Under the pieces are notes generated by a model. The model searched no databases. It was given only the letters and a program-made list of their open reading frames with translations, and was not told where the DNA came from. 45,385 nt of DNA from a virus: IMG/VR virus record IMGVR_UViG_3300017971_000403, positions 1-45,385 of that record; one strand, 5' to 3'. Position numbers and translations under genes: made by a program. Below are positions 16,953 through 45,385 of this stretch, piece after piece. Numbering within the stretch: position 1 is the first letter of the stretch; each line of letters begins with the position of its first letter.

Positions 16953-17913
16953 AGGCGACCCGTTCTTCGGCGATACCGACTACGGCTACAGCGACAATCC
17001 CGTGGGGGTTGGTCCAGAGCCAGCCCCCGTGCATTGCAGTGGATGTGGCGACGAGCGACCCTACACGTTGCTCAACCCGCCCCCCCATCTGCAGGCGCGA
17101 GGCATGGTGGCCAGGTGGGTGGCGCCGCGGATCAACCCGTGCGATCGGTGCAAGGAGATCGCCGATCGGAAGGAGGCCGAGCGCCGTTACTGGGCGCGGG
17201 TGAAGATGGCAGGCGTTCCCCGGAAGCACCGGCACTTCGACTGGGAACGGCGACAGGACTGCCTGGGTGACGCCATCGTCGTCGACTGGATGCGGCGAGT
17301 GAAGCGGAAGGACCTGGTCGGTGTCCACCCTCACAACGCGAAGGCGGCCATGGCTCTCGTCAAGTGGCAGCCGGGCACCGGCTCGCTCTGGATCGAGGGG
17401 AAGCCCGGCCGGGGCAAGACGCTGTTCTCCAGCCTGCTCGCGATGGAGCTGTGCAAGATCCGAGATCTCGAGCTTGTCGAGAAGGGCGACGATGGCAAGT
17501 GGCACGCTGCTGCGGACCAGAGCAAGCCCCCCCCCAGCGGACCTCTGACTTACCGCCGCAGCCCGCTGGTATCGGTGCTCCTGGTCAACGAGGAGGAGCT
17601 CCACGACCGCGTGAGGATGAAGTGGAGCGGTGACCGCGATCCGATGATGAAGATGGCGTCGGTGGACGTGCTGATCATCGACGACCTCGGCACCGAGGAC
17701 CCCGGCAAGGACTGGGTGCAGGCGAACATCGAGAAGATCGTCGACTACCGGTGGAAGCACGGGCTCCCGCTGATCATCACGACGAACAGGCGATGGCGTG
17801 ACGTCACGAAGGACGACAAGCCCCTGTACGGCCACCGCGTCGCCGATCGGCTGATCGAGATGATGGGTGAGCGCCGGTACACGCTCGGCGGTGAGAGTTG
17901 GAGGTCAGTGTGA
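16933..17913 (+). CDS. DnaC/IstB-like AAA+ helicase loader
   Basis: 326 residues. ATG 16933 lies just after CAGGAG; ATG 16939 is an equally possible start. N-terminal Cys pairs C35/C38 and C70/C73 form a probable zinc site. The AAA+ domain has Walker A GKPGRGKT (K162), Walker B VLIIDDLG (D250-D251) and sensor-1 LIITTNR. DnaC-type loaders open and place the DnaB ring on origin DNA. No phage DnaB is visible, so it likely loads the host helicase. The preceding gene contains the iterons. A C-terminal basic segment (RVADRLIEMMGERRYTL) is typical of the family. Confidence 0.9.
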   Translation: MTMPASEGDPFFGDTDYGYSDNPVGVGPEPAPVHCSGCGDERPYTLLNPPPHLQARGMVARWVAPRINPCDRCKEIADRKEAERRYWARVKMAGVPRKHRHFDWERRQDCLGDAIVVDWMRRVKRKDLVGVHPHNAKAAMALVKWQPGTGSLWIEGKPGRGKTLFSSLLAMELCKIRDLELVEKGDDGKWHAAADQSKPPPSGPLTYRRSPLVSVLLVNEEELHDRVRMKWSGDRDPMMKMASVDVLIIDDLGTEDPGKDWVQANIEKIVDYRWKHGLPLIITTNRRWRDVTKDDKPLYGHRVADRLIEMMGERRYTLGGESWRSV

Positions 17914-28166: not shown

Positions 28167-28309
28167 TGAGCATGACCGCCTACGAGGTCTGGATGCACAT
28201 GGGAGCTCGACAGTCGTTCTGTCGGTGGCGCCGGCCGCTCTGGTTCTACTGGCCCAACGACTTCACGCCGTCTCAAGTGGATGAACTGCAGCGGGAGTCG
28301 ACCCCGTAG
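28166..28309 (+). CDS. Small hypothetical protein (47 aa)
   Basis: ATG 28166 (TGATG overlap, GGAGGG upstream) to TAG 28307-28309, which shares one base with the terminase GTG. The product is aromatic-rich (SFCRWRRPLWFYWPNDF). Strong ribosome site and perfect coupling on both sides suggest it is real. Function unknown. Confidence 0.6.
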   Translation: MSMTAYEVWMHMGARQSFCRWRRPLWFYWPNDFTPSQVDELQRESTP

Positions 28310-30183
28310 TGGACCCAGAGCAGGCCCAGCAGCAGTTCAAGCTCATCGCCGCGGCGATCACCACCACCCTCGGGTCGGTGGATGCTCCGCTCGACCCCTG
28401 CGACAACGTCTACCGGTTCATCCAGCACTACAACCTGCTCTTCGACGGGCAGGTCATCGACTACGAGGTCGCCTACAAGCACCTCCGCGAGATCGCCGAG
28501 GACATCCACCCGGTCATCACGCTCATGGCCGGCGCGCAGACGGGCAAGTCCGTCCTGCTCATGATCAACCTGCTGCGGGACGCCGTGATCTACTGGGGGC
28601 AGATGCTCGGGTACTACTTCCCCGACCAGCACCTCCCCCGCGCGTTCTCCACCAGGCGCTTCGCTCCCTTCGTGCGTCAGTCGCCCATCATCGGCCCGTG
28701 GCTCGGCAAGGCCACCAGCAAGGGCAAGGGGCAGGACGCGGTCTTCACGAGGACGCTCGGACCCACGACCATGTTCTTCCTCACCGTCGCCGGCCGGAGC
28801 TCGACGGAGGGGCTCCCGATGAAGGGCGTGTACTTCGACGAGGTGCGCCGGATGCAGCCGGGCGACATCGAGCGCGCGATGGAGCGCACCAGTGCCCAGG
28901 TCATGCCCCGGGACATCAAGGTGTCGACCGCGTTCTACCCCGAGAGCGACATCCACAAATACTTCCTCGAGGGCGATCAGCGGTGGTTCCACACCATCGG
29001 CGGCTGCAACTGCAAGGACGGGGTCATCCTCTCGAGGCGGTTCCCCGACTGCATCGAGGACCTCTCGAACGCGACGACGCGCGTGCTGCGCAAGGTCGAG
29101 CGGGCCTACGACAAGGCCGGGCTCCCGTACCTGGGGATGCTCCCGGCCGACATCGAGCGGTACGGCCAGGCGGTGTACCGGTGCCCGGTCTGCGGCGAGC
29201 TCATCGTCGACCCTCGAGACGGCTACTGGGTGCCCGAGGTCGAGAGCAACTACCCGCACAGCTACCAGATGCCGCAGATGCTCTCGCCGACCTACTCGGC
29301 AGCTCGGGTGCTCTACAAGCACGAGCACAGCGAGGACATCCAGGAGTTCTACAACTCCACGATCGGCATCCCCTGGATCGACCCCGAGACCCAGCCGGTG
29401 CGCCCCGAGCACTTGAAGGCCTGCGTGCGGACGGGACTGCGCTGGTGGGCGAACATGAGCGAAGCCTGGCGTCGGAAGCACGCGCACAACTGCGCGATGG
29501 GGGTCGACGTCCAGGCCGGCTACAACATCGTGGTCATCAAGAAGCTCGCGCCCAACGGCAAGTTCAGGACCGTCCACCTCGAAGTCGTCCACGGCGACGA
29601 CCCGTGGAAGCTCACCGCCCGGTTCATGGTCGAGTACGACGTCCGCATCGCAGTGGTCGACGGCGAGCCCCACTGGAACGAGGCCTTCCGATTCGTCAAG
29701 GCCTTCCCTGGTCGCGCCTGGGTGGCGGACGAGACCGACGGCAAGGTCGGCAAGATGGTGAGCTGGAAGGACCTGTCGAAGAACAAGGACCAGCGGGGCG
29801 ACGAGACGCGCTTCAAATACGGGGTGACCATCCACCGCACGAAGGGCCTGCGCTGGTCCCTGGACCGGTGGGTCAAGGGGCTCAACGAGACCCCGCACCC
29901 CACGAAGCTGGTGCAGCGGCTCCCCGTCCAGAAGGGCAAGGTGCGGCTCACCTCGGGTCTCCGTGTCGGCCGGTGGCGACCCACGCCGATCTGCCGCGAC
30001 GTCTACTGGCCCCACATGCAGGCGGTCGCGTTCCGGAAGATCTACACTACGGAGGAAGCGGAGCGGCAGGGCCGGTATCAGTACCGCGCCGAACACGTCG
30101 CGATCGACCCGCACTTCGCACATGCTGATATGTTTGCGGACGTGGCACTGGCTAGAATAGGGAAGCCGCGACTCCAGGGGTAA
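28309..30183 (+). CDS. Terminase large subunit (GpA-like)
   Basis: 624 residues from GTG 28309 (TAGTG). ATPase motor: Walker A AGAQTGKS (K80) and Walker B VYFDEVRR (D177-E178). Mid-protein zinc pair CPVCGE (C292, C295), typical of the lambda GpA-type family. Nuclease domain: GVDVQAG (D400) and a second acidic site in VVDGEPHWNE. It would cut and pump phage DNA into the prohead. The family is often linked with cos-type packaging, but the packaging mode cannot be read here. Followed closely by a small gene and the portal. Confidence 0.93.
   Translation: MDPEQAQQQFKLIAAAITTTLGSVDAPLDPCDNVYRFIQHYNLLFDGQVIDYEVAYKHLREIAEDIHPVITLMAGAQTGKSVLLMINLLRDAVIYWGQMLGYYFPDQHLPRAFSTRRFAPFVRQSPIIGPWLGKATSKGKGQDAVFTRTLGPTTMFFLTVAGRSSTEGLPMKGVYFDEVRRMQPGDIERAMERTSAQVMPRDIKVSTAFYPESDIHKYFLEGDQRWFHTIGGCNCKDGVILSRRFPDCIEDLSNATTRVLRKVERAYDKAGLPYLGMLPADIERYGQAVYRCPVCGELIVDPRDGYWVPEVESNYPHSYQMPQMLSPTYSAARVLYKHEHSEDIQEFYNSTIGIPWIDPETQPVRPEHLKACVRTGLRWWANMSEAWRRKHAHNCAMGVDVQAGYNIVVIKKLAPNGKFRTVHLEVVHGDDPWKLTARFMVEYDVRIAVVDGEPHWNEAFRFVKAFPGRAWVADETDGKVGKMVSWKDLSKNKDQRGDETRFKYGVTIHRTKGLRWSLDRWVKGLNETPHPTKLVQRLPVQKGKVRLTSGLRVGRWRPTPICRDVYWPHMQAVAFRKIYTTEEAERQGRYQYRAEHVAIDPHFAHADMFADVALARIGKPRLQG
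30149..30158 (+). promoter_or_regulatory. Candidate extended -10 (TGGCTAGAAT)
   Basis: TGGCTAGAAT near the 3' end of the terminase gene, 27 bases before the start at 30185. No -35 match, so this is a weak promoter prediction for the portal-side genes. Confidence 0.3.
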
Positions 30184-30184
30184 C

Positions 30185-30556
30185 ATGCCGATCACCGAGT
30201 CCAGCCGTCGTCTCGTTCACCAGCTCGAGCAGCGCCGGCCTGCCGAACGCGAGATCCGGCTACCGGCAGCCCTGGGGCCGACCATCCGCAAGGTGGCCGA
30301 CCCCGTCGCCAGTGTCGAGGACGTGATCGGCCGGCTGGACTACGGCGAGCCAGTGGGTCGAGCTCCGAATGGGTGGCTGCAGAGCCAGGCCGGCAAGACC
30401 GTGATCCGGGGGATGCGCCGCTGCTGCGTCTCCGTCATCCAGCGCGTCGACTCGATGCTGCACCACCTCCCCCCAGTCTCCCGCCATCAGTGCGGGACGT
30501 GCGGCTCGATCTGGGAGGTTGACTACCGTGTGAGAGAGGAGCGACACCATGCCTGA
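30185..30556 (+). CDS. Hypothetical protein between terminase and portal (123 aa)
   Basis: Basic, helical protein with Cys pairs RCC and CGTCGSIWEV near the end, perhaps a zinc site. It overlaps the portal start by 8 bases. Position suggests a packaging or head-joining helper, but no family is recognised. Confidence 0.65.
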   Translation: MPITESSRRLVHQLEQRRPAEREIRLPAALGPTIRKVADPVASVEDVIGRLDYGEPVGRAPNGWLQSQAGKTVIRGMRRCCVSVIQRVDSMLHHLPPVSRHQCGTCGSIWEVDYRVREERHHA

Positions 30557-32444
30557 GAAGCCCCCGCCCCTGTACGGACCCGACGGCAAGCTCATCGAGG
30601 CCGACAGCATGGAGGAGAGCGGCCTCGACTTCCTCGCGAAGCAGGGCGTCACCCGCAACGACCGCGGCGACCTGGTCATCCCGACCGACGTGATCAAGCG
30701 GATGCGCTCGGACCGCCTGCGCGACCTCACGGTGTCGACCGTGCCCTCGGTCCCCAGGCACATGCAGCGGGACGCTGGCGGCGTCGGTGTGAGAAAGGGG
30801 TTCAACAAGTTCGAGACGTTCTCTCTGGAGCTCCTCCGCAAGCTCCGCGAGCGGTCGCCGATGCTGCAGGCGATCCACAGCGCCCGCCACTACCAGGTGC
30901 GGCGGATGTCGAGGCGGTGGGGTGGCCGGAAGATCGACGTGGGATGGCACCCGGTCCACAAGGACCACCAGGACCAGGGCGCCAAGATCCCGGAGGGGTT
31001 CGAGAAGTACATCGCCAAGGCCGAGACGATGCTCGAGAGGCCGAGCCACCGGTACTGCCCGACGATGGGGCAGATGATCACGCAGCTCGAGGAGGACCTC
31101 CTCACGATCAACCGGCCCATCGTCGAGAAGCTGTACTCGATGTACGACAAGAGCCGCGTGGTCGGCTTCCGGCCGGTGGACGGCGCGATCGTCTGGCCGA
31201 CGATGCTGTGGATCGAGAAGTGGATCGCGGACACCCCGCAGTGGCACGGGGGCTTCAACCCCGACGGGCTCTCGAACGAGGAAGTCATCGAGCTGGCCTC
31301 GGAGGCGGCCGGCTGGGACCTGTACGGCGTGCCCTACTGCCTCGTGCGCGAGGGCGTGCTCGAGGGCGTGTACCGGGCAGGGAAGCTCGTGGTGGCCCCG
31401 ATCGTGAACCGGACCGACATCAACGTCGCCGGCTACCCGCCCAGCCACGTCGAGCAGGCCATCGAGATCGTGCTCAGCTACATCAACGCCTGGGACTACA
31501 ACGCCACGTTCTTCACCCGCGGGCTCATGGCCGAGTTCATCCTCGGAGTCTCCGGCGACGTCCACGACGAGGACATCCACGCCTTCGTGGACATGCTCCG
31601 CGAGAGCGCGCAGGGCGTCCGTCGAGCTCACCAGCCCCCGGTCATGCCGCTACCGGTGGACGGCACGCTGCAGAAGATCGACCTCAAACCGAACAACCGC
31701 GACATGATGTTCGAGCTCTGGATGTCGGTCCTCTCGAGCCTGTGCGCCGCCATCTACCGGATGGACATGAGCGTCGTGAACATGAAGCCGTGGGACGGCG
31801 GTAGTGGCTCGAGTCTCTCGGAGCCGAGCCGCGAGATGGAGATCGCGCTTGCCAAGGAGGAGGGGCTCCAGGGCGACCTGCAGCACCTCGCCGACACGGT
31901 GTTCGACCCGCTGCTTCGGACCATCCACCCCGACCTGCGGCTGAAGTGGGAATTCGGGGACTACGACCCGAAGAAGGAGGCCGAGCTCTACGAGGTGCGT
32001 GCGCGCACCAGCATCACCCGCAACGAGGTCCGCGTGGCCGAGGGGCAGATGCCGATGGGGTTCTACCTCTCCGACGACGAGTACCAGGAGGCCTCTGAGG
32101 AGGACAAGCAGAAGTTCCACGACAACCTCTGGAACATGCCCACCGACCCGTCGTTCGCCTCGAGTTACATGCAGGCCAAGATGCAGGAGCAGATGGCCGA
32201 CCAAGAACAGCAGCCGCAGGACGACGGCTTCGGTGCCGCCCCCGACGAGGACGTCGACGGCTTCGGTGCGCCCCAGGGCGGCGAGGACGACGGCTTCGGT
32301 GGCGGCCCGGGGCAGGGCGCTAGCCCCTTCGGACAGCCCCCTGGACAGGAGGGCGGCGGCCCAGCAGGACAACCCCCAGGACCGGGCGGCCCCATGCAGA
32401 AGGGCACCCGTGATCGCATCACCGTCTACGTCGAGGAGAGCTGA
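30549..32444 (+). CDS. Portal protein
   Basis: 631 residues. An early helical part (FSLELLRKLRERSPMLQAIHSARHYQVRRM) and a middle domain with aromatic and Pro residues (GWDLYGVPYCLVREG) are followed by the portal signature region: Asp/Met-rich strand (LCAAIYRMDMSVVNMKPW), EALAKEEGLQGDL-like helix and RARTSITRNEVRVAEGQMPM (about 480-500), as seen near the C-terminus of many portals. A Gln/Gly/Pro-rich low-complexity tail (about 555-620) is unusual in length. It follows the large terminase and precedes a MuF protein, the expected head-gene order. Confidence 0.85.
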   Translation: MPEKPPPLYGPDGKLIEADSMEESGLDFLAKQGVTRNDRGDLVIPTDVIKRMRSDRLRDLTVSTVPSVPRHMQRDAGGVGVRKGFNKFETFSLELLRKLRERSPMLQAIHSARHYQVRRMSRRWGGRKIDVGWHPVHKDHQDQGAKIPEGFEKYIAKAETMLERPSHRYCPTMGQMITQLEEDLLTINRPIVEKLYSMYDKSRVVGFRPVDGAIVWPTMLWIEKWIADTPQWHGGFNPDGLSNEEVIELASEAAGWDLYGVPYCLVREGVLEGVYRAGKLVVAPIVNRTDINVAGYPPSHVEQAIEIVLSYINAWDYNATFFTRGLMAEFILGVSGDVHDEDIHAFVDMLRESAQGVRRAHQPPVMPLPVDGTLQKIDLKPNNRDMMFELWMSVLSSLCAAIYRMDMSVVNMKPWDGGSGSSLSEPSREMEIALAKEEGLQGDLQHLADTVFDPLLRTIHPDLRLKWEFGDYDPKKEAELYEVRARTSITRNEVRVAEGQMPMGFYLSDDEYQEASEEDKQKFHDNLWNMPTDPSFASSYMQAKMQEQMADQEQQPQDDGFGAAPDEDVDGFGAPQGGEDDGFGGGPGQGASPFGQPPGQEGGGPAGQPPGPGGPMQKGTRDRITVYVEES

Positions 32445-32446
32445 AC

Positions 32447-32884
32447 ATGGTGCTCAAGGACTTCAACGACCAGCCTGCCCAGGTGCAGGCCGACCCCGCG
32501 CAGGGCGTCTCTCGCTCCCCCTTCGGCGGCAAGAAGGGCGTCTGGCTCGTTCTCCGGAAGGAGATCAACGCCGACGAGAGCGCGCCCACCACGAAGCTGC
32601 AGTGCATCCAGGCCCCGACCTACGAGCGCATGAAGTTCGCGGTCGAGGTGCCCGCGGGCGTCACGGCCTACACCGTCCACATCGGCCGGTGGATCGAGAC
32701 CGAGGACAAGGGCCAGGCCATCGACGGCTGGTTCGAGGAGCAGGTTCACTCGAAGAACGTCTCGGCGACGTTCGACGTGGAGCTCGCTCGTGACCCGGTC
32801 GGCATCTACGTCGACAACATCGTCGGCACGCCCGCCAGCTCCATCCACATCCTGTACCAGCGCGCCTCTCAGAACCCGACGTGA
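32447..32884 (+). CDS. Putative virion-associated protein (145 aa)
   Basis: Begins 2 bases after the portal stop. Mixed strand-rich protein (WLVLRKEINADES, YTVHIGRWIETED, VSATFDVELARDP) that looks like a jelly-roll or small beta-sandwich, typical of head accessory proteins. No family recognised. Its end overlaps the MuF gene by 4 bases (GTGA). Confidence 0.6.
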   Translation: MVLKDFNDQPAQVQADPAQGVSRSPFGGKKGVWLVLRKEINADESAPTTKLQCIQAPTYERMKFAVEVPAGVTAYTVHIGRWIETEDKGQAIDGWFEEQVHSKNVSATFDVELARDPVGIYVDNIVGTPASSIHILYQRASQNPT

Positions 32885-34038
32885 CGCATCGGTGTGCCGT
32901 ACACGGTGAGCTCGATGACAACGGAGAGGTCCGGCTGGCGACCAACATCCGGACGCTGGACCCCTGCCTCCACGGAGCCGTCATAGGGGCGCTCGCGACG
33001 CACGCCGGATACGACCCGGTGCCGCTCCAGAAGGCTCTAATCCCCCGTGGTGGCAAAGGGTGGGATGCCCGGTGGCCGGACCTCCCCGTTCTCATGCTCA
33101 AGGCCAGGATGGACTGGGACCGGTGGGGTACCAGGCTCGTCGAGGCGATCCACGAGCTCCTCGAGGGGGGCAATCTGCTCCCGATGTCGGCCGAGGTCGA
33201 GGCCGAGCTGGCGACGCTCCTCCGCGAGCACGAGGTCGGGCTCGTGGCCCAGTTCTCCGGCCAGGTGCTCGACCAGCGCATCGTCAAGGCCTTGAAGGCC
33301 AGCGGTGACGTCGACGAGACGAGCACCATCGAGCTCGCCTTCCGTCTCGGGCTCGACGAGGACCCGATGAAGCCGGCGACGCCGAAGAAGACGAAGCCGA
33401 CACTGCGCCAGGTGGTGAAGCGCGCCATGCGCGTCGAGGTCACGCCCCAGCAGCGCCAGTCGATGCGGTACGCCCAGCGCCAGGCCGGGATCTACATGCG
33501 CAAGGCCGCATCCGAGGTCGAGGTCGGTGCCGAGCGCACGCTGAACGAGGCCGAACAGTCGGTGGTCCGCGAGACCATCACCGATGGCGTCGAGAAGCGG
33601 TGGGGTTCGAAGCGACTGGCTCGGGAGCTCCGCGCCGCGTGCAAGGACAAGCCGGTCCTGCAGAACAACATGGAGCGGGTGGCCCGCACCGAGATCGCCT
33701 TCGCTCACTCGCACGGGGCGTACCGGCGTCTGAAGGCGCAGGCGCTCGCGTCTGGAGACAAGGACCCCCAGGTCTACAAGCTGGTCTCCCCGATGGCCTG
33801 CACGGAGTGTCGGCGCATTTGGGGGCCGTCAGGGGCGCCAATCCGATATAGACTGTCGGCAATCGAAGCGCGGGACGCAGCAGGCGGAAACTTCAACCTC
33901 AAGCGAGATGCGTGGGGTCCGGTCATCGGTCCCGTCCATCCGCACTGCACCGAAGGTCCGCTGTTGTACTTCCACGACGTCATCTGGGATGCAATCCAGG
34001 AAGCTCGTGAGCAGTACAAGCGGTACTACGGGGGCTGA
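32881..34038 (+). CDS. MuF-like minor head protein
   Basis: 385 residues from GTG 32881. The C-terminal MuF core is recognisable: ERVARTEIAFAHSHG (about 260-275), then CTECRRIWG, then VHPHC-EGPL. These residues are shared by the phage Mu gpF / SPP1 gp7 family, which are minor capsid proteins ejected with DNA in some phages. The N-terminal 200 residues are helical and phage-specific. Placement after the portal is standard. MuF genes often adjoin polyvalent protein genes, as here. Confidence 0.85.
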   Translation: MTHRCAVHGELDDNGEVRLATNIRTLDPCLHGAVIGALATHAGYDPVPLQKALIPRGGKGWDARWPDLPVLMLKARMDWDRWGTRLVEAIHELLEGGNLLPMSAEVEAELATLLREHEVGLVAQFSGQVLDQRIVKALKASGDVDETSTIELAFRLGLDEDPMKPATPKKTKPTLRQVVKRAMRVEVTPQQRQSMRYAQRQAGIYMRKAASEVEVGAERTLNEAEQSVVRETITDGVEKRWGSKRLARELRAACKDKPVLQNNMERVARTEIAFAHSHGAYRRLKAQALASGDKDPQVYKLVSPMACTECRRIWGPSGAPIRYRLSAIEARDAAGGNFNLKRDAWGPVIGPVHPHCTEGPLLYFHDVIWDAIQEAREQYKRYYGG

Positions 34039-36319: not shown

Positions 36320-39300
36320 ATGCCCTGGAAGAGCATCGAGGACGTGCCCGCCAGCCTGAAGTCGCTGGATCTCGCCACCGCGAACAAGTGGGGCGAGGTC
36401 TTCGACGCGGTCAAGGCCGAGGGCAAGTCGCCCGAGTCAGCAGCGAAGATCGCGTGGTCCACCGTCCGGAAGATGGCGAAGGGTCGCCGTCTTGCCGTGC
36501 GTGTGTCTGGACTGGCGAAGGCCCGACAGGACCGTCTGCCAGGCGGTGCGGCCGACGACGTCGACCACGACGAGCTCGACCAGGACGCGCTCGAGGACGG
36601 CACCGAGCACGAGCTCGAGCACACGGACGACCCCGAGCTCGCCGAGGAGATCGCGGCCGACCACATCGTCGAGGAGGGCGACGACTACTACGACAAGCTC
36701 GAGGACATCGAGAAGGGTGGCCCGGGGCTGGCCCTGCTCCCGTCGAAGTCGAACCCGATGGTCAAGCGGTGGCAGCGTCCGGACGTGCCCAAGCGCGACG
36801 ACGACCACGACGACGGCCGCGGCGAGGAGATGCCGGTCGACTTCCGCCGCGGCAGCAAGTACCGCCACCCGCTGTTCCACGGCAGCGACACCGCGATGCC
36901 CAAGGGGCACAGTCTCCGGCCCGACGTCGGCGGCGAGTATGGCATCTACCTGTCGCCCAAGAAGCGGTACGCGCGCATGTACGGCGACCACACCTACGAG
37001 GTCTCCGTCTCGGTGAAGAACCCCAAGGTGGTCGAGGGCAAGTACGAGATCAGCCCGCGCGACCTCACGAAGAAGGACATCGAGAAGCTGAAGGCCCAGG
37101 GCTACGACTCGCTCGTGGTGACGTCCAGCGACCTCGCCGGCGCCAGCGAGGTCGTGCTCTTCGATCCCGAGCAGGCCTGGGTCAACGAGGGCCGCGGCAT
37201 GTACAAGGGCGACCAGCAGGGGCTCTTCGGCGACGTGAAGAGCCACGTCCGGAAGACGAAGAAGGGCAAGGTCGCAGTCGTCAAGCGCCACACGCGGAAG
37301 AAGAAGGGGCGGAAGCAACAGCGCCTCACCCCGTCTGCTCCCGGCCTCACGATCCTCCGGATGGGGATGGGGCGCGACTCGATGACCATGCTGTGCCTCG
37401 TCGCCGAGGGCAAGCTGCTCGTCGACGGCAAGGCCATCGGCCCCGAGGGGCTTGACGCGGCCGTCTTCACCGACACCGGCAACGAGTGGCCCCACACCTA
37501 CGAGCTCATCCCTCGCGTCCAGGAGTTCTGCGACGAGCACGGCATCCGCCTGATCATCCAGCGCAAGCCGACCCCCGACGCGATGAACACCTGGAAGGCG
37601 AAGGTCCACGAGATCCGCGAGGGGATGTGGGAGGTCAAGGCGCCCGCGAAGCCGATGCGCGAGGAGCGCAAGAAGCTCCTCTCGGAGAGCAAGCGCCTCA
37701 ACAAGCGCATCGAGGCGAAGCGGACCACCGACGAGCAGCGAGAGGAGGCGCGCGCCAGGCTGGGAGTCATCGACACGCGCGTCGCGGAGCTCGACCACGA
37801 GATCAAGGCCATCGAGGACCAGGCCAACCCCTACATCCAGCAGATCAAGAAGGTTCCGAAGTCGTGGCGACGTGACGAGGACACCATCGACGAGCGGGCG
37901 GAACGAGGCGGCTACCACCTCCGGCCTTCGGTGATGGAGGACTACGCGAGCAAGCGCACGATCTGCGCGATGAACGACCCGGGCTGCACGCACAACCACA
38001 AGATCGTGCCGAATCGGCAGCTCATCAACGACCTCTCCCGCGAGAAGTGGGGCGTGGGCAACGCGGCATGGGGCAACGCGGTCCGCCGAGGGGATCGGAA
38101 GCCTCACCGGATGCTGATCGGGTTTGCGGCGGATGAGACCCACCGGATCACGCGAGCCGAGGATCTCGAGAAGAGAGGAGCCGGCCCGGACTTCGAAGCC
38201 GACTTCTACCCCCTCGTCGAGATGGGGATCGACAAGGCCGGCGAGCAGGAGGTGCTCGAGCGGCACGGGTTCGGCGACGTCATGAAGTCGGGCTGCTTCA
38301 TGTGCAAGTGGCAGCCTGCGAGCTGGTACTGGGCACTTCGCGAAGTCAGCCCGGCCAGCTACCAGCGCGTCGTCGACTACGAAGAGCGAGCTCGAGCCCG
38401 CAACCCGAGCCTCACCATCTTCAAGGGCCAGGGCATCGACGACGTCGTTGAACAGTGGCGTCAGAAGCACCCGCGGGCGACCGTCCAGGAGGTGCTGCGC
38501 AAGGAGTACGCCTCCGACGTGGAGGACACCGACCTCATGGAGAAGGGCCGCCCCCTGCACGACCTGGCGCCGGTGTTCCGCCTACTCATCCGTCGGATGC
38601 TGAAGGCCGAGCAACTCGCCATGTTCACGAAGGAGAGCACGGCGCGTCGAGCTCGGGTGCGTCAGCACGCCCGCGTCCGTGGCGGCAAGGCCTCGATCGT
38701 GAAGTCACACGAGCGGGGCACGAAGGGGCGCCAGTACGTCGCCTTCACGCCGCACCCGCAGAACCGTGGCCCCGACCAGGTCGGACCCATGCACGTCACG
38801 ATGTCGATCGACGAGGTCGACGACGCGATCCGCCACATGCCCGAGGAGCACTGCTGCGTCTTCGCGACGGACGGCCGGCAACTGTTCCGGGGCTCGCCGG
38901 TGACGACGAGGGCGTGGAGCCCGGAGTCTGACCCGAAGCACGCCTGCGCCATCGACCCCGCCTTGACGAGGCGGCCCGAGTTGACCGCAGGCGGCTCGTT
39001 CACGCACAACCACCCGGGCGGGTTCCCGTTCCCGAGCCCGCAGGACATCGGCTCGGCGACCCAGATGGTGATCAGGGAACTGCGGATCGCGGTGCCGACC
39101 GGCACGATGATCTTGACGCTCGACTACGAGGTCCGTGGTCGCATGGGGCCTCTGAGCTTCATTGAGACGCTGCGGGCCAACGCCGCGTTTTTCGCCGAGA
39201 ACGACATGAACAGGCACATCCGGGAGTCGGGAGGCAACCCCGACACCGGCGACATCACGGGGTACACCGATGAGAAGTGGAAAGAGTTTCTCCTCGACCG

Positions 39301-41824
39301 ATGGCGGCAAGAGATCGCCCAGGCCGGCACCGTCATCGACGCGCCCGTCGCCTTCGAGTGGCGACCCAATCGTGATCGACGAGAAGGAAGAGATCGAGCT
39401 GGCCCCCAGCTACAGAGGCTTGCCGCGTCCACGCTGGGAACCCTCGGACTTCGAGTCATCCGACTGACCAAGGCCGAGCAGCTCGAGCTCTTCGGCCCGT
39501 CGACGGTCAAGGCGCACACCAGGCGGACGAAGACGAAGGTCGCGATGGTGAAGCAGCACCAGCGCGTCCGCGCCCGCAACCGGCGCGGCGAGTTCAAGAT
39601 CCACGGCCCCGACGACTACGAACAGGACGCCGGAGACGCCAAGAGGCCCCGCGATCGGAAGGCCTGGCTCGAACGGTGGCCCGCCTACGACCACGACCAG
39701 CGAGAGGCCGCGAAGCTCAACGTCGGCGACGAGTTCGAGCTCAACCTGCACGGATCGAGTTGGGCGCCCAGCAAGGACGTGAAGCGGACGGCAACGGTGA
39801 AGGTGGTCGGCGAGTGGTTCAAGCACGGCGGCGACGTCGACTACGCGCTGCCCGTCATGGTGAAGGACCGCCCGAAGCTGCTGATCATGAGGCCCGACTA
39901 CCGGACCTCGATCCTCATGAACCTCGACAAGAATGGCGCCGAGACGTCGGGCAACTGGGCGCACTTCCCGGTGGTCGACTGGCCGAAGACCACGGCCGAC
40001 ATGCACGCCCGCGCCAGCGTCGATTGGTACACCAACACGAAGAACCCGGGCCGGGGCTACTACCTGCACCTGGTTCGGGCAGAGGACGATCCTCCAAGGT
40101 CGTCCAGGAAGGAGCGGCAGGCGCGGGAGTTCACCGAGGAGGTTCGTCGCCGCGAGGACATGACGAAGAAGACCCGGCCGGAGTGGCGTCGACGCATCTT
40201 CGACTACCTCCGGACCCATGACTCCTCGACCTTCAACACGATCCTCGTCGACCTCGCCGACATCACTGCGGACATGGGGCACGGTGTCCCTGGCGACGCG
40301 CTGTGGGATCTCGTCGAGGCGGGCAAGGTCTACCACACCGACCCGTCGAGACATCCGGTCTGGTTCGCGGTGGCGCCCGACGACAAGCTCGAGCCGATGG
40401 ACAAGGCCGTCAAGGCGTCTGGAGCTGGCCCGCAGCTCTCGATGTTCTCGCAGGAGAGCAAGCCTCGCCGAGCTCGCGTCGTGGTCCGCGCCCACATCCG
40501 CCGAGGGAAGCCCGTGGCGGGGCACACGAAGGCCTCGCCGAAGAGGAAGGCGGGGAAGGTCTACGACGGCGCGAAGCACGCCAAGAAGCTGCGCACGGCC
40601 GCGGACAAGCTGCAGCCGAAGATCGACAAGAAGCGCGAGCCTCACGACTGGAACGTCACCAGGCGCCGAGCGTCCATCCAGGCCGGGCTGATCATGGATG
40701 CCGAGCGCATGGAGAAGCAGCAGGCCTACCTGCGCACCCTCGCCGACCACGCCGAGCGTGGCACCCTGGACCCGGCGCTGCGGTTCATGCAGACGTTCGC
40801 CGCGTTCAAGATACTCCAAAGCGCCAGCCCGAAGTACGGCCACCCCGCCAACGACTTCAACCTCAACCACCTCGCCGAGTTGGCGAAGGACGCACGGCAG
40901 GACGCATGGGGACCGTCGTACCACCGGCGCGAGAAGGTCACCGGCGTCGACAAGGACCTCGCGGTGCTCGACCAGGTCATCGCCCGCCAGTCCCCGCCCG
41001 ATGGCGAGGAGCTCTGGCAGGTCAGGGCGAGCTTGTCTATGCCGGAGATCGAGTCCGTCGAGCGCATCGCCAAGGCGGTGAAGGCCAGCGGCCGGTGGCT
41101 CCCGGGCAACATCCCCGACGACATCCGTGACGCCAAGCGGGCGCTCAAGGCCGGCATCGTCGGCGATGAGGCCTGGCACGCAGCCATCGCCGCCTTCAAG
41201 ACCTACGCGGGCGAGGCCAGGGCACGCTACCAGCAGGGCGACAGCTACGAGAGCCCCGAGGACAAGGAGAAGCGCGAGCGCCTCGAGAGCGCCAAGCTGC
41301 TCACCCACAAGGGGTTTTTCCCCACACCCGACGTGCTCTCGCAGCGCGTCGCCGAGGAGGCCGATCTTGAGCCAGGGCAGTTGGTACTGGAGCCCAGCGC
41401 CGGGCTCGGAGACATGGCCCGCGTGGTCGAGGCTCACGAGCCGGGCATCCGGCTCCACGTCGGCGAGTTCCACGAGACCCTCCGAGGCGTGCTCGAGGAC
41501 CAGGATCGCGAGATCGTCTCGCGCGACTTCCTCGCCTACAACCCCGGCCCCATCTACGATCGAATCGTCCAGAACCCGCCCTTCGAGAGCCGCCAGGACA
41601 TCGACCACGTCCTGCACGCCTACGACCTGCTGAAGCCGGGCGGGCGCCTGGTGTCGATCATCAGCGCCGGCCCCATGTACGGCAACTCGAAGAAGGATCG
41701 CGCGTTCCGGACGTGGCTCGACGAGGTAGGGTGGTCCGAGAAGCTGCCCGAGGGCGCCTTCAAGAAGGCCACCCGCTCCACGGGGGTCCAGACGTACCTC
41801 GTCGTCGTCGACAAGCCGGAGTGA
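36320..41824 (+). CDS. Giant multidomain 'polyvalent' protein (1834 aa)
   Basis: Domains by eye: ChaB-like N-terminus (about 1-50); acidic linker; ADP-ribosyltransferase-like domain (about 180-290, LFHGS at 185 and EVVLFDPEQ at 277); PP-loop ATPase/PAPS reductase-like domain (about 343-710: GMGRDS at 349, FTDTGN at 383, CxxC at C659/C662) with a long coiled insertion; JAB/JAMM domain (about 800-1000: H896-x-H898, S906, D909); unknown domain (about 1110-1270); winged-helix-like part (about 1285-1355); a helical domain; and an N6-adenine methyltransferase (FFPTP at 1666, NPPF 1752-1755). Four QLxLF-plus-basic modules sit at residues 299, 765, 1054 and 1372. Fits the known polyvalent proteins of phages and conjugative elements, thought to be injected with DNA to counter host defences. 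Confidence 0.85.
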   Translation: MPWKSIEDVPASLKSLDLATANKWGEVFDAVKAEGKSPESAAKIAWSTVRKMAKGRRLAVRVSGLAKARQDRLPGGAADDVDHDELDQDALEDGTEHELEHTDDPELAEEIAADHIVEEGDDYYDKLEDIEKGGPGLALLPSKSNPMVKRWQRPDVPKRDDDHDDGRGEEMPVDFRRGSKYRHPLFHGSDTAMPKGHSLRPDVGGEYGIYLSPKKRYARMYGDHTYEVSVSVKNPKVVEGKYEISPRDLTKKDIEKLKAQGYDSLVVTSSDLAGASEVVLFDPEQAWVNEGRGMYKGDQQGLFGDVKSHVRKTKKGKVAVVKRHTRKKKGRKQQRLTPSAPGLTILRMGMGRDSMTMLCLVAEGKLLVDGKAIGPEGLDAAVFTDTGNEWPHTYELIPRVQEFCDEHGIRLIIQRKPTPDAMNTWKAKVHEIREGMWEVKAPAKPMREERKKLLSESKRLNKRIEAKRTTDEQREEARARLGVIDTRVAELDHEIKAIEDQANPYIQQIKKVPKSWRRDEDTIDERAERGGYHLRPSVMEDYASKRTICAMNDPGCTHNHKIVPNRQLINDLSREKWGVGNAAWGNAVRRGDRKPHRMLIGFAADETHRITRAEDLEKRGAGPDFEADFYPLVEMGIDKAGEQEVLERHGFGDVMKSGCFMCKWQPASWYWALREVSPASYQRVVDYEERARARNPSLTIFKGQGIDDVVEQWRQKHPRATVQEVLRKEYASDVEDTDLMEKGRPLHDLAPVFRLLIRRMLKAEQLAMFTKESTARRARVRQHARVRGGKASIVKSHERGTKGRQYVAFTPHPQNRGPDQVGPMHVTMSIDEVDDAIRHMPEEHCCVFATDGRQLFRGSPVTTRAWSPESDPKHACAIDPALTRRPELTAGGSFTHNHPGGFPFPSPQDIGSATQMVIRELRIAVPTGTMILTLDYEVRGRMGPLSFIETLRANAAFFAENDMNRHIRESGGNPDTGDITGYTDEKWKEFLLDRWRQEIAQAGTVIDAPVAFEWRPNRDRREGRDRAGPQLQRLAASTLGTLGLRVIRLTKAEQLELFGPSTVKAHTRRTKTKVAMVKQHQRVRARNRRGEFKIHGPDDYEQDAGDAKRPRDRKAWLERWPAYDHDQREAAKLNVGDEFELNLHGSSWAPSKDVKRTATVKVVGEWFKHGGDVDYALPVMVKDRPKLLIMRPDYRTSILMNLDKNGAETSGNWAHFPVVDWPKTTADMHARASVDWYTNTKNPGRGYYLHLVRAEDDPPRSSRKERQAREFTEEVRRREDMTKKTRPEWRRRIFDYLRTHDSSTFNTILVDLADITADMGHGVPGDALWDLVEAGKVYHTDPSRHPVWFAVAPDDKLEPMDKAVKASGAGPQLSMFSQESKPRRARVVVRAHIRRGKPVAGHTKASPKRKAGKVYDGAKHAKKLRTAADKLQPKIDKKREPHDWNVTRRRASIQAGLIMDAERMEKQQAYLRTLADHAERGTLDPALRFMQTFAAFKILQSASPKYGHPANDFNLNHLAELAKDARQDAWGPSYHRREKVTGVDKDLAVLDQVIARQSPPDGEELWQVRASLSMPEIESVERIAKAVKASGRWLPGNIPDDIRDAKRALKAGIVGDEAWHAAIAAFKTYAGEARARYQQGDSYESPEDKEKRERLESAKLLTHKGFFPTPDVLSQRVAEEADLEPGQLVLEPSAGLGDMARVVEAHEPGIRLHVGEFHETLRGVLEDQDREIVSRDFLAYNPGPIYDRIVQNPPFESRQDIDHVLHAYDLLKPGGRLVSIISAGPMYGNSKKDRAFRTWLDEVGWSEKLPEGAFKKATRSTGVQTYLVVVDKPE

Positions 41825-41826
41825 CC

Positions 41827-43008
41827 ATGCGGTTCCTGATCCGTCGAGAGCTACTGAAGGGCGCCCAGGGGGAGCTCTTCTCTGTGCGCCGGCACTACCG
41901 ACGCACCCCGACGGGGAAGGTGGCAGTCGTCCAGGAGCACCAGCGACAGCGGCCGACGTACTTCGCCAGCGGCTCGAACCACCCGGGGGAGCTCCGCGCG
42001 CTCGTGGCCACCGACATCCCGGCCGGGGCCACCGTCGGCGACCTCACCGACGCGGGGCTCGCCACGGTGCTCGAGGAGGTTGCCGAGGGCGACCAGCCGT
42101 TCTTCCTCGACAGCGGTGCGTTCCGCGCAGTGAAGGGCGTGCCCAAGCCCGTCGACTGGGACCGGGTCATGGACACCTACCGGGCCGTCTCCGAGCGCAT
42201 GGGCAGCAAGGCCTACCTCGTCGCTCCCGACAAGATCGGCAACTGGGAGACCACCCGGGCGATGCTGCAGCGGTTCCACGACGAGCTCACCGAGGTCCAG
42301 GCCAACGGCGCCAACCTCATCGTCGGACTGCAGGGGCGGCTGGGTGAGAGCTGGGGAGAGGCCACCGCGCTCATGGGCACGGACATCGTCGCCGGCATCC
42401 CCGCCAACAAGAGCCCGAAGACGCCCGCCGAGGTCTACGAGTTCGTGCGCGACTTCAAGCCCGCCCGTGTCCACCTCCTCGGCCTGGGGTGGCGGTCGCC
42501 CAAGGCCAAGTCCTACATCGAGGCCATCGAGCGGGCGAACCCGGGCACGAAGGTCTCGCTCGACTCCGTCGCGTTCCGAGCTCACGTCGGGCAGGGCCGG
42601 GGCATCGCCGAGGCCCTGGGTCCGGTCCAGGAGGAGCACGCGGAGCTTCGTCGCCGCGGCTACACCGAGGCCGACCGCGGCGAGTTCCCTGGCGAGGGGC
42701 TCCCGGACTACACCGACGCCATCGCCGAGCCGTCCGCCTGGATGACCAGGGCGGCGCAGTCGCGGGTGGCCCGTGCGGTGGGTCTCGAGCGAGCCGACCG
42801 CAAGGCCTGGATGTCGGACCCCGACGAGTTCCTGCAACTCGAGGCGCCCAACGGCGAGCCCTGGTACGCCTGGCCCGACATGGAAGAGGCGCTCGAGGCC
42901 GAGTACGACAACGCGGCGGCTGGCAGGGGCGGGTGGGAGACCGCGGCACGCAAGGAGCGATCCCTGCGGGTCGCACTGCCCAAGATCGAGAGGGGGCGGC
43001 TGGTATGA
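41827..43008 (+). CDS. DpdA/TGT-like (deazaguanine transglycosylase-like) protein
   Basis: 393 residues from ATG 41827. After an N-terminal copy of the QLxLF-type module (QGELFS, residues 14-41), a TIM-barrel-like domain shows LDSGAF (D95), VAPDKIG (D135), a conserved VGLQG segment and VHLLGLG (about 215). This order recalls DpdA and related tRNA-guanine transglycosylase-like enzymes, which exchange guanine for a deazaguanine in DNA. No deazaguanine synthesis genes (FolE/QueD/QueE/QueC) are in the window, so the substrate would have to come from the host, from genes outside the window, or the enzyme does something else. The C-terminus is a helical, Glu/Ala-rich tail. Confidence 0.55.
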   Translation: MRFLIRRELLKGAQGELFSVRRHYRRTPTGKVAVVQEHQRQRPTYFASGSNHPGELRALVATDIPAGATVGDLTDAGLATVLEEVAEGDQPFFLDSGAFRAVKGVPKPVDWDRVMDTYRAVSERMGSKAYLVAPDKIGNWETTRAMLQRFHDELTEVQANGANLIVGLQGRLGESWGEATALMGTDIVAGIPANKSPKTPAEVYEFVRDFKPARVHLLGLGWRSPKAKSYIEAIERANPGTKVSLDSVAFRAHVGQGRGIAEALGPVQEEHAELRRRGYTEADRGEFPGEGLPDYTDAIAEPSAWMTRAAQSRVARAVGLERADRKAWMSDPDEFLQLEAPNGEPWYAWPDMEEALEAEYDNAAAGRGGWETAARKERSLRVALPKIERGRLV

Positions 43009-45385
43009 AGTTCGCGATTCGACAGTTGGTCAAGGCAGGGCGCGGCGGCGACGTGCAGATCAAGGCGCACCCGAGGGCCGCCAAGTCGGGCCGCGTGTCG
43101 ATGGTGAAGCAGCACACCAGGCGGGTGAAGCGAGCCGCCGTCGATCGCTATCGTCGTGCTCGAGGGAGTGGCGACACGGTGCTCTGGCGGGCCGCCGATG
43201 ACCCCGGCATCACTGCCGGCGCGCACCTCACGGCCGAGAGGGGGGACGCCGAGGCCTACCTGGACAACCCGGGCTATGGGGGCGACAAGCTCTGGAGCTA
43301 CCGCGTCGATCCCGAGAGAACGCTCGACGTCGGCGATGACTTCGAGGATCTCGCGCAGACGTACCTCGACCTGCTCGAAGAAGATGATGCCGATGAGCAC
43401 TACAGCGTGGTCATGGACATCATGCGTCGGACCCACGGCTACGACCTCCTGCGAGACGAGGGGCTCTCGAACGAGGAGCTCTACGACGAGTTGAAGGGGG
43501 CTGCGGCTCACGAGCTCGCGCAGGACTGGAGAGTCAGTCACGGATGGGTGCATGACGTCCTGGAGAACGAGAGCGACGTGGAGGACCTGCTCGCGCAGCA
43601 CTACGACTGGATTTCGTTCGCTGACAGCTACCCGGAGGACGCGACCACCTGGAAGTATCTGGGCGACAAGGAGATCACGCCCTACGCCTTGCACAAGGGG
43701 GAGCAGCTCGCTCTCTTCGGTGGGTTCACCAGCGTCAAGGCCCACCCGCGCGTCACGAAGAGCGGCAAGGTCACCCAGGTCCGCCACCACAAGCGGACGG
43801 CCCCCGAGCGGAAGCCGGAACCGTCGCCCGCAAAGTCGGCACCGACTACTGCGCCCATCGAGCAGGAGCCCGTCGAGCTCGACCTACCCACCCGGAAGCT
43901 CGGGCGCATCAAGGCCGTCGTCAAGGAGTACGCCAAGCGAGCGGAGAGGCTGGGGATGGAGCCCCCGCGGCTCGAGCTCATCGGCGAGCCCTTCCCCAAG
44001 ATCATGCGCGTCCCCGACTGGGAGCGCGACGAGCGTGGCGAGATGACACGCGAGATCCGGGTCAACCACCAGCGCATCCGCATCGACGCCCCCGAGTTCA
44101 AATACGGCGACCACCAGCTCGTCGGCAAGCTCACCCCGAGCGGCGACCGCAACCTGGTCAACGCCACGAGCCAGCACGTCGTCCCGCCGATGTTCATGCA
44201 CACCGGCATGAAGTGCGACCACTGCGGCACGACTCGAGGGCGCAAGACCTGCTACGTCCTGAAGGACCGGCGCGATGGCCGACACATCCAGGTCGGCGGC
44301 GAGTGCCTGAAGGACTACATGGGGCGGTCGGCGGCGGCGGTGGCCCGCGCCGCGGCGCTCATGCTCGAGTTCTTCGAGAAGCCGTGGGACGATCTCGCGT
44401 TCCTGCCCGACTGGGAGGACCACGGCGGCGGCAAGCCCCCAAAGGACATGCTCGTGCCGCTGGACGACACGCTGGCCAGGGCGGCTGCGGCCATCGAGAT
44501 CACCGACGATCAGTGGGTGAGCAAGGACGTCGCCGACTTCAAGCACATCCCGGGCACGTTGGAGGTCTTCCGCGATTTGCGGGACACCGACGTCACCGAC
44601 AAGCACCGGAAGATCGGCGCTGCTGCGCTCGAGTGGATGAAGACCCTGCCCGCCACGGAGACGGTCATCGAGGAGGAGGTCAGGCCGACCGCCGAAGCGA
44701 TCGAGCGCCTGGGCGATGACGCCTGGTCGTCTCCATACGACGAGGACTTCGAGAAGGTCGAGAAGAGGGTCGAGAGCGCCGGCACCTACAACGCGAAGCT
44801 CCGCACCATCGCCGACGCCGGCGAGCACGAGCTGCGCCACGAGGGCCTCGCTGCGTCAGCGGTCGGCGGCTACTTCCGGCACAAGGCCCACGAGGCTCGC
44901 GAGGAGGCGAAGCGCCAGGCCGCGAAGGTGGGGTATCGGGGCAAGCCGGGCGATCGTATCCGCAAGGGCAAGGTCACCGCGGCCGACCGTCGGAAGGGCA
45001 TCGAGTACCACGAGCCCGAGCTCGTCGAGGTCATCGCCCGCCCGAGCTTCGACCATCAGTACGGCACCACCTACATCCTCATCATGAAGGGCGAGAGCGG
45101 GCACACCTACAAGTGGAAGACCTCCAACCCGCTCGCGCAGGGGTTGCTCGAGGAGAGGGGTAAGCACCGCTCGGACACCATGACGGGGATGCACGTCGGC
45201 GACCGGTTCTGGATTCGACGCGCAAACATCAAGGACCACGAGGAGTACAACGGCGTGCCCCAGACGGTCCTCACCCACGTCAAGGCCGTCCACGCTCTGC
45301 ACTGGCCCTTCGACGAGGAGGCCTCTCCGGTCACCTACGACATGCTCAAGGCCGACACCGAGTTCGACACCCCGCTCGTCATCCA
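43005..45385 (+). CDS. Polyvalent-type protein, 3' truncated by window end (at least 793 aa)
   Basis: ATG 43005 overlaps the previous stop (ATGA); the frame is open to the last base, checked by hand translation. Two basic modules are present: a degenerate one at residues 7-40 and a full one at 234-266 (QLALFG). Residues about 58-115 (LWRAAD, HLTAERGDAEAYL, LWSYRVDPERTLDVGDD) look like an ADP-ribosyltransferase fold. Residues 404-440 hold a zinc site CDHCG, C416 and VGGECLKDYMG, a Cys pattern common in phage and plasmid proteins. The remainder (about 450-793) is helical and basic. The 3' end is outside the window, so further domains cannot be judged. Confidence 0.75.
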   Translation, partial: MKFAIRQLVKAGRGGDVQIKAHPRAAKSGRVSMVKQHTRRVKRAAVDRYRRARGSGDTVLWRAADDPGITAGAHLTAERGDAEAYLDNPGYGGDKLWSYRVDPERTLDVGDDFEDLAQTYLDLLEEDDADEHYSVVMDIMRRTHGYDLLRDEGLSNEELYDELKGAAAHELAQDWRVSHGWVHDVLENESDVEDLLAQHYDWISFADSYPEDATTWKYLGDKEITPYALHKGEQLALFGGFTSVKAHPRVTKSGKVTQVRHHKRTAPERKPEPSPAKSAPTTAPIEQEPVELDLPTRKLGRIKAVVKEYAKRAERLGMEPPRLELIGEPFPKIMRVPDWERDERGEMTREIRVNHQRIRIDAPEFKYGDHQLVGKLTPSGDRNLVNATSQHVVPPMFMHTGMKCDHCGTTRGRKTCYVLKDRRDGRHIQVGGECLKDYMGRSAAAVARAAALMLEFFEKPWDDLAFLPDWEDHGGGKPPKDMLVPLDDTLARAAAAIEITDDQWVSKDVADFKHIPGTLEVFRDLRDTDVTDKHRKIGAAALEWMKTLPATETVIEEEVRPTAEAIERLGDDAWSSPYDEDFEKVEKRVESAGTYNAKLRTIADAGEHELRHEGLAASAVGGYFRHKAHEAREEAKRQAAKVGYRGKPGDRIRKGKVTAADRRKGIEYHEPELVEVIARPSFDHQYGTTYILIMKGESGHTYKWKTSNPLAQGLLEERGKHRSDTMTGMHVGDRFWIRRANIKDHEEYNGVPQTVLTHVKAVHALHWPFDEEASPVTYDMLKADTEFDTPLVI

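Follow-up and report, generated by a model that had tools for sequence, protein, structure and literature searches.

A repeated domain-border cassette in polyvalent proteins of a phage late head operon, with candidate head-protease and clamp-binding motifs

Introduction

Phage polyvalent proteins are large multidomain polypeptides encoded in the head operon, in which ART, InPase, LPD1, HExxH peptidase, methyltransferase and DNA-modification domains are combined (PMC5512222). Processing of these proteins by a peptidase has been proposed there, with the cut sites left unnamed, and a search of the text of that paper by terms gave no match for linker, interdomain or clamp and revealed no border element in common. 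Within the part of the open-licence literature that was covered, a search for polyvalent proteins, sliding clamp and phage together retrieved only a survey of jumbo phages. The Dar proteins of P1 and the ejection proteins of SPN3US are packaged in the head, injected and processed by the head protease (PMC12810830; PMC10052503); the cuts reported for them mostly remove N-terminal propeptides, and in SPN3US they fall after AxE.

Clamp-binding proteins provide a further point of comparison. The bacterial clamp-binding consensus is QL[S/D]LF, its third residue being variable and in most cases small, and it is represented by QLGLF in Pol II and QLNLF in UmuC (PMC3716654); the transposases of many insertion sequences carry Q-L-x-L-F (PMC4549789) and exemplify mobile elements that dock on the host clamp (PMC3716654, PMC4549789). 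In all of these proteins the motif resides in termini or linkers.

Here we describe a repeated element in the 45,385 b virus record IMGVR_UViG_3300017971_000403, which was analysed at its full length and is referred to as the window. The element forms a cassette at the domain borders of polyvalent proteins from the late head operon, and the genes that carry it, which belong to uncultured phages, encode polyvalent proteins with a previously undescribed border cassette. Several unrelated enzymatic domains are found per polypeptide, and domains typical of the class score above cut-off in the continuation of the window operon (LPD1, 75 bits) and in a second phage, G002, and a MAG (InPase, 98-121 bits); the ART-PolyVal match of the window itself reaches 22 bits and lies below the cut-off of 31. 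Whereas clamp-motif proteins usually possess one motif in a mostly terminal position, here up to five or six occur per polypeptide, before domains and beside a putative protease site. In contrast to the cassette proteins, the P1 Dar-type proteins DarA, DarB, DdrB and Ulx lack the border motif, and no QxxLF-type motif was found in them.

The cassette genes and the extent of the locus

The right half of the window encodes a terminase, a portal and a MuF-like head morphogenesis gene followed by three cassette genes, as assigned with PHROGs (Table 1). Judging by the terminase, portal and MuF-like genes upstream, the cassette genes are part of the late head operon, a position that supports a putative delivery of the cassette proteins with the virion. 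Protein 1 starts with a region of weak DUF5661 and ART-PolyVal matches (PF18905, E=2e-5; PF18760, E=2.5e-4; both below cut-off), continues with a PAPS-reductase-like domain and uncharacterised middle domains and ends in a DNA methyltransferase-like C-terminus; its PHROG matches are phrog_424 (E=4e-15) and phrog_15406 (E=2e-63). Between cassettes 2 and 3 (window positions ~38800-39450) the segment FTHNHPGGFPFPSPQD, which has no PHROG match, looks like a JAB/RadC-type metal site.

Table 1. Features of the window discussed in the text; the arrow marks a candidate cut, and scores are those of leave-one-out profiles.
Feature	Position	Strand	Basis or score
Head genes (terminase large subunit, portal, MuF-like head morphogenesis protein)	28309..34038	+	PHROGs
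Portal C-terminus starting MQK↓G, candidate head-protease site	32394..32444	+	site list; portal = phrog_12/phrog_2662
Protein 1, polyvalent, 1,834 aa, cassettes 1-4	36320..41824	+	Pfam, PHROGs
Cassette 1, MYK↓G-D-QQGLF-GD-VKSHVRKTKKGKVAVVKRHTRKKKGRK, directly before PAPS-reductase-like domain	37199..37312	+	33.5 bits
Cassette 2, FRLLIRRMLK↓AE-QLAMF-(10 aa)-VRQHARVRGGKASIVKSHER	38576..38716	+	13.5 bits
Cassette 3, LGLRVIRLTK↓AE-QLELF-GPST-VKAHTRRTKTKVAMVKQHQR	39443..39565	+	34.5 bits
Cassette 4 (weakest), MDK↓AVK↓ASGAGP-QLSMF-(12 aa)-VRAHIRRGKPVAGHTK	40397..40531	+	6.2 bits (best decoy 5.1)
Protein 2, queuine tRNA-ribosyltransferase-like, 393 aa from ATG 41827, N-terminal cassette	41827..43008	+	phrog_887, E=1.4e-5
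Cassette 5, at gene start, MRFLIRRELLK↓GA-QGELF-S-VRRHYRRTPTGKVAVVQEHQR	41827..41946	+	36.0 bits
Protein 3, cut by window end, two cassettes	43005..45383	+	continues from L003:14686 onward
Cassette 6, at gene start, without QLxLF, MKFAIRQLVK↓AGRGGDVQ-IKAHPRAAKSGRVSMVKQHTRR	43005..43124	+	22.9 bits
Cassette 7, KEITPYALHK↓GE-QLALF-GGFTS-VKAHPRVTKSGKVTQVRHHKR	43668..43796	+	38.5 bits
Example cassette peptide, AEQLELFGPSTVKAHTRR			

The predicted structure of protein 2 is barrel-like, with residues 1-45 below pLDDT 50, and derives from a shallow alignment of three sequences. A fold search with this model recovered only generic barrel enzymes and no transglycosylase fold, so that the transglycosylase-like name of the protein goes back to one PHROG match. 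No relatives of protein 2 were found in the PDB, and the module gave a single match there at chance level; tblastn against isolated phages with protein 2, the module peptide and a W-type cassette returned no matches. The homologues of protein 2 in loci L140 and L144 likewise sit behind a cassette.

The preliminary description had listed seven copies, and although all of these are present in the window, the window truncates the array. Over 17,066 b, contig 3300028840_001627 (L003, record G001) matches the window with 99.99% identity; it runs on rightward and adds at least four further copies, which are located at the gene starts at L003:17069 and L003:21818 and both before and after the C5-methyltransferase domain of the latter gene. 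The pentapeptide of cassette 2 reads QLALF in L003 as opposed to QLAMF in the window, and an inorganic-pyrophosphatase-like gene of the L003 continuation contains KAEQLSLV, after which a different short element comes. The window contig ends exactly where the frame of protein 3 would meet the next gene; in L003 (17066-18087) this frame stays open for ~1 kb further and the following gene uses a different frame from its ATG at 17069 onward, for which an indel, an assembly break and a programmed frameshift are the candidate explanations.

Architecture of the cassette

The cassette opens with a short hydrophobic/basic leader whose last residues are [LM]-x-K-[A/G/S/T]; a QLxLF pentapeptide 0-2 residues further on, a basic hairpin and then the effector domain follow. 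The preliminary description had recognised a constant segment made up of pentapeptide and basic stretch; this segment is real but longer, since [LM]xK[AGST] precedes nearly every QLxLF at a short distance. The pentapeptides stand where it had placed them, at 37214 (QQGLF), 38612 (QLAMF), 39479 (QLELF), 40433 (QLSMF), 41866 (QGELF) and 43704 (QLALF), two of them off-consensus (QQGLF and QGELF). Its ascription of a pentapeptide to every copy holds for these six, but the copy at 43029 keeps the leader (LVKA) and the hairpin and has no QLxLF.

Alignment past the pentapeptide had been set beforehand as a test of the repeat. The seven copies can all be aligned, and when any one is omitted the profile of the other six detects it, with 6.2-38.5 bits compared to at most 5.8 bits for the best among 300 shuffled sets; the copy at 40433 exceeds its decoys by a narrow margin. 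The motifs are similarly unexpected by composition: the three proteins (3,022 aa) contain four exact QLx[LM]F (shuffle mean 0.02, maximum 1 in 5,000) and 12 [VI][KR]xHxR (shuffle mean 0.14, maximum 3), and the two kinds of motif stand together within 20 aa in six copies versus 0 in 5,000 shuffles. QLx[LM]F is also the most frequent among 60 permuted patterns in these proteins, and the other called genes of the window (11,007 aa), head proteins included, contain zero matches to either motif.

Recurrence and mosaicism in other phages

The first alignment of the module was too divergent for a search of loci, and degenerate DNA patterns were used instead. These retrieved the cassette from phage 3300007345_000035 (G002, 64 kb), from its relatives and from contigs of one MAG; most of 70 matches in the genome collection were rejected as chance, this MAG being the only real one. 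Profile matches number 12 in G001 (30 kb), 12 in G002, 6 in G005 and 9 in the MAG contigs. Homologues outside the window thus carry the motif, the lack of which the preliminary description had named as grounds for abandoning the repeat. Seventeen clear copies conform to [LM]-x-K-[A/G/T]-x-Q-L-x-L-F; K and Q never vary in them and L and F hardly ever do. In the module phages phi-x-K-small lies at most 12 residues upstream of 27 of the 34 QxxLF-type sites, as compared to 7% at random positions.

The same domains recur behind the cassette, as a rule, and in varying orders, namely queuine-transglycosylase-like, PAPS-reductase-like, Mom-like, C5-methyltransferase and HExxH/LPD1 domains. The transglycosylase-like domain stands alone in the window, whereas it is located N-terminally in G002 and C-terminally in the MAG. 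Both the window and G002 have a cassette ahead of the PAPS-reductase-like domain, and G001 and the MAG have one ahead of the C5-methyltransferase domain; cassette 1 of the window and its domain align to residues 796-1208 of L140:6542-11596 (41%). In Mom-like and HExxH/LPD1 proteins the cassette is N-terminal to the domain, with other sequence sometimes in between. Given that homologous domains are found in different proteins and orders, mostly right behind a cassette, the shuffled unit is usually the cassette plus its domain.

Such mosaicism raises the question of whether cassettes are relics of gene fusion, that is, leaders of once separate effector genes left behind as neutral linkers. The internal leaders do resemble those at gene starts (MRFLIRRELLKGA and RLLIRRMLKAEQ) and the same domains are encountered both alone and fused, yet neutral relics would decay, and the K, Q, L and F residues are retained as described above in 17 copies across divergent phages; we regard this origin as very improbable.

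Further observations concern the wider distribution of the domains. A transglycosylase-like family with the signature FVDSGAF (L144:3043-4422 and 65 loci) is common among phages, either by itself or as part of long proteins, and its window member is not recognised by Pfam. The cassette operon of G002 ends with a large helicase-bearing protein (L139:9321-14966) that has QSLFG and QAGLFG in its linkers, without the hairpin. With the PAPS-reductase-like domain of the window as the query, only one further phage with a long protein was found outside the module group.

A candidate head-protease site

Counted in the sequences from which it had first been read, the [LM]xK[AGST] motif occurs 67 times in the cassette proteins versus 30.5 expected (z 7.1) and 25 times in virion proteins versus 9.4 expected, and is not enriched in early proteins (7 versus 8.4). 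Permuted and Arg versions of the motif are flat in the late sets. The portal, protease, scaffold and MCP of G002 together contain 17 matches against 2.4 expected, and its tail-region proteins three against 3.5. The head proteins of Goe26, an SPO1-like Bacillus phage and the only separate phage in the comparison, hold 23 [LMVI]xK[AGST] versus 6.9, a number reached in 0/1000 shuffles, with V and I also allowed at the first position. Many matches to [LM]xK[AGST] lie away from QLxLF, and the candidate site MQK↓G in the portal of the window has the equivalent MQK↓A in that of G002.

The gene L139:7861-8811 of G002 is homologous to a Goe26 protein classified by PHROGs as head maturation protease (phrog_1028, E=9e-115), and it directly precedes scaffold-like and major capsid genes. 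The N-terminus of the G002 MCP, LLEK↓AV...IVPEDLE (LEKAVATDTITAIVPEDLE), resembles the tail of the protease, LAK↓AV...IVPEDLE (LAKAVTADNPLGRAIVPEDLE), with a score that 1/300 shuffles reaches, and such likeness is expected if one enzyme trims both. The S78 Pfam model has no match in G002, and the predicted structure of the protease is too poor to be of use. Because the window contig ends before the protease and capsid genes, the protease argument builds on the synteny of G002 and on the SPO1-like relative. The phrog_1028 protease of SPO1-like phages (Herelleviridae) is homologous to that of G002 and the head proteins of Goe26 share [LMVI]xK[AGST]; cleavage of SPO1-like proteins at this site is our own reading of these data, and no report of it was found in the literature searched.

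In G002 the cassette proteins have this signature in common with the capsid, scaffold and protease, and [LM]xK[AGST] is, judged by sequence, probably a head-maturation protease site. The preliminary description had considered the module a processing site for the separate release of domains. QLxLF itself does not qualify, and a role solely in inter-domain cutting was rejected, as the copies at gene starts would separate nothing; the adjacent [LM]xK[AGST] has the signature of a head-protease site and may well serve this function.

Processing could also be ascribed to the HExxH metallopeptidase domain of the polyvalent proteins themselves rather than to the head-maturation protease. The same operons do encode an HEWxHFMDH region with LPD1, and autoproteolysis by such domains is proposed for DdrB of P1 (PMC5512222), but capsid, scaffold, portal and protease proteins share the [LM]xK[AGST] motif; this speaks for the head protease and makes self-processing by HExxH domains improbable.

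A candidate clamp-binding motif

Position 3 of the cassette pentapeptides is occupied by G, A, E, S, T, N or D, and QLxLF is sometimes replaced by the six-residue form QLALDF. The motif recurs beyond the complete cassette. In 23 long phage proteins for which the transglycosylase-like domain was the sole selection criterion, nine Q[LMQ]x[LM]F are present versus 0.71 expected (maximum 4 in 300 shuffles), often just ahead of a domain; in one of these long proteins QMGLFGG stands ahead of a PAPS-reductase-like domain that is a homologue of the window's, and this protein has no hairpin. In other phages KAEQLGLFG is followed by different elements, GWxxIPxGKxGGYRRR...YWYP or GPRGGKWADPxHTIPW. With the selecting motif masked, nine Q[LMQ]x[LM]F remain there versus 0.2 expected, a count biased upward because some of the reading frames were listed for holding such a motif. 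A collection-wide scan for KA[DE]QLx[LM]FG found 44 stretches versus 19 for its permuted version, and hence perhaps half of the 44 are due to chance.

No beta clamp was found in four phage records, and the window phage encodes a DnaC-like helicase loader according to PHROGs; both fit a reliance on the host replisome. The preliminary description had proposed a tether to the host clamp, and this putative role gains from the presence of QLxLF before the same kinds of domain without the hairpin, from the small residues at position 3 and from the QLALDF form. On balance we lean towards clamp binding by QLxLF, while noting that the motif is short and that its enrichment at linkers could reflect another ligand.

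One such ligand would be a phage head protein, with the cassette acting as a capsid-targeting or ejection signal that leads proteins into the prohead or out of the tail. The portal and capsid genes of the head operon have the cassette genes between them, and the cassettes at gene starts look like short leaders. T4 internal proteins have short leaders, too. Against a targeting signal, the called head proteins of the window are devoid of QLxLF and VKxHxR, a polypeptide would need no more than one signal but one protein carries five or six copies, and the pattern of QLxLF, with its QLxLxF form and small position 3, is that of clamp ligands. We therefore consider a targeting signal rather unlikely and continue to favour the clamp as the ligand of QLxLF.

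QLxLF is not a universal feature of polyvalent proteins, as it is absent from the tested proteins of P1, Shewanella Y11, Dolichospermum Dfl-JY45 and KB12-38 and from the second protein of Pseudoalteromonas Y3; judged by these isolates, the cassette marks a subset of polyvalent proteins.

The basic hairpin and other border elements

The hairpin conforms to VKxHxR...GKVxxVKxHxR, and in protein 2 two strands are predicted for it with low confidence (residues 18-26 and 32-40). It is the least specific part of the cassette and occurs alone in unrelated phage proteins. DNA binding or a packaging signal had been the third possibility raised by the preliminary description, and the hairpin would be the candidate for it. 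One might see in the hairpin the functional core, which would bind DNA or RNA and pack the protein together with the genome, QLxLF being secondary to it; its strongly basic character and its solitary occurrence agree with this, but other phages keep QLxLF at domain borders with the hairpin swapped for a different short element or missing altogether, so that a core role of the hairpin seems most unlikely.

Lone hairpins of the form VKxHxRxxKxGKVxxVxxHxR are found in L006:1710-1762, L008 and L013, in L004 and L011, and in L005 and its relatives; the carriers include one protein resembling a tail-completion protein and small proteins with the hairpin at the N-terminus. Three further short elements were observed. 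PPGxGWxxIPxGKxGGYRRR...YxYWYP comes after QLxLF in other phages (L147, L148, L151, L152), GPxxGPRGGKWADPxHTIPW is located at domain borders of phage proteins (L151, L153, L155, L171, L196), and RPGLxLxPSKSNPxxKRWQR is present in protein 1 (residues ~134-152), L140:2199-6533 and L142:18020-19405, in the last of which it comes after KAEQLSLV.

Proposed mechanism and implications

The candidate motifs can be joined into one scheme. The large proteins would be made late and enter the prohead, where the phage head-maturation protease would cut after the lysine of [LM]-x-K↓[A/G/S/T] and free the effectors one by one, with new N-termini such as A-E-Q-L-x-L-F. Following injection, or in the course of late replication, the exposed tag would dock DNA-modifying enzymes on the host beta clamp (DnaN) and thereby on freshly made phage DNA, and the basic hairpin may add a contact to DNA or clamp. 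Among the cassette-bearing effectors are several with DNA as their expected target (C5- and other methyltransferase, Mom-like and transglycosylase-like), and a clamp tether would help such effectors. We assign a probability of about 0.5 to this joint reading, a polyprotein chain cut in the prohead such that each effector starts with a clamp tag, in which cleavage, packaging and binding are deduced from sequence features. A little more tentatively, there may be a class of phages that deliver injected effectors as concatenated polyproteins, in which the head-protease cut at [LM]xK↓[AGST] exposes an N-terminal clamp tag.

If true, the virion protease would both separate the DNA-modifying enzymes and arm each of them to ride the host replisome. 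As the cassette marks the start of a domain, it also provides a handle for finding and delimiting uncharacterised phage effector domains. The cassette offers a testable answer to two questions about polyvalent proteins: how single working enzymes may be split off from the chain, and by what means an enzyme would locate the phage DNA once injected.
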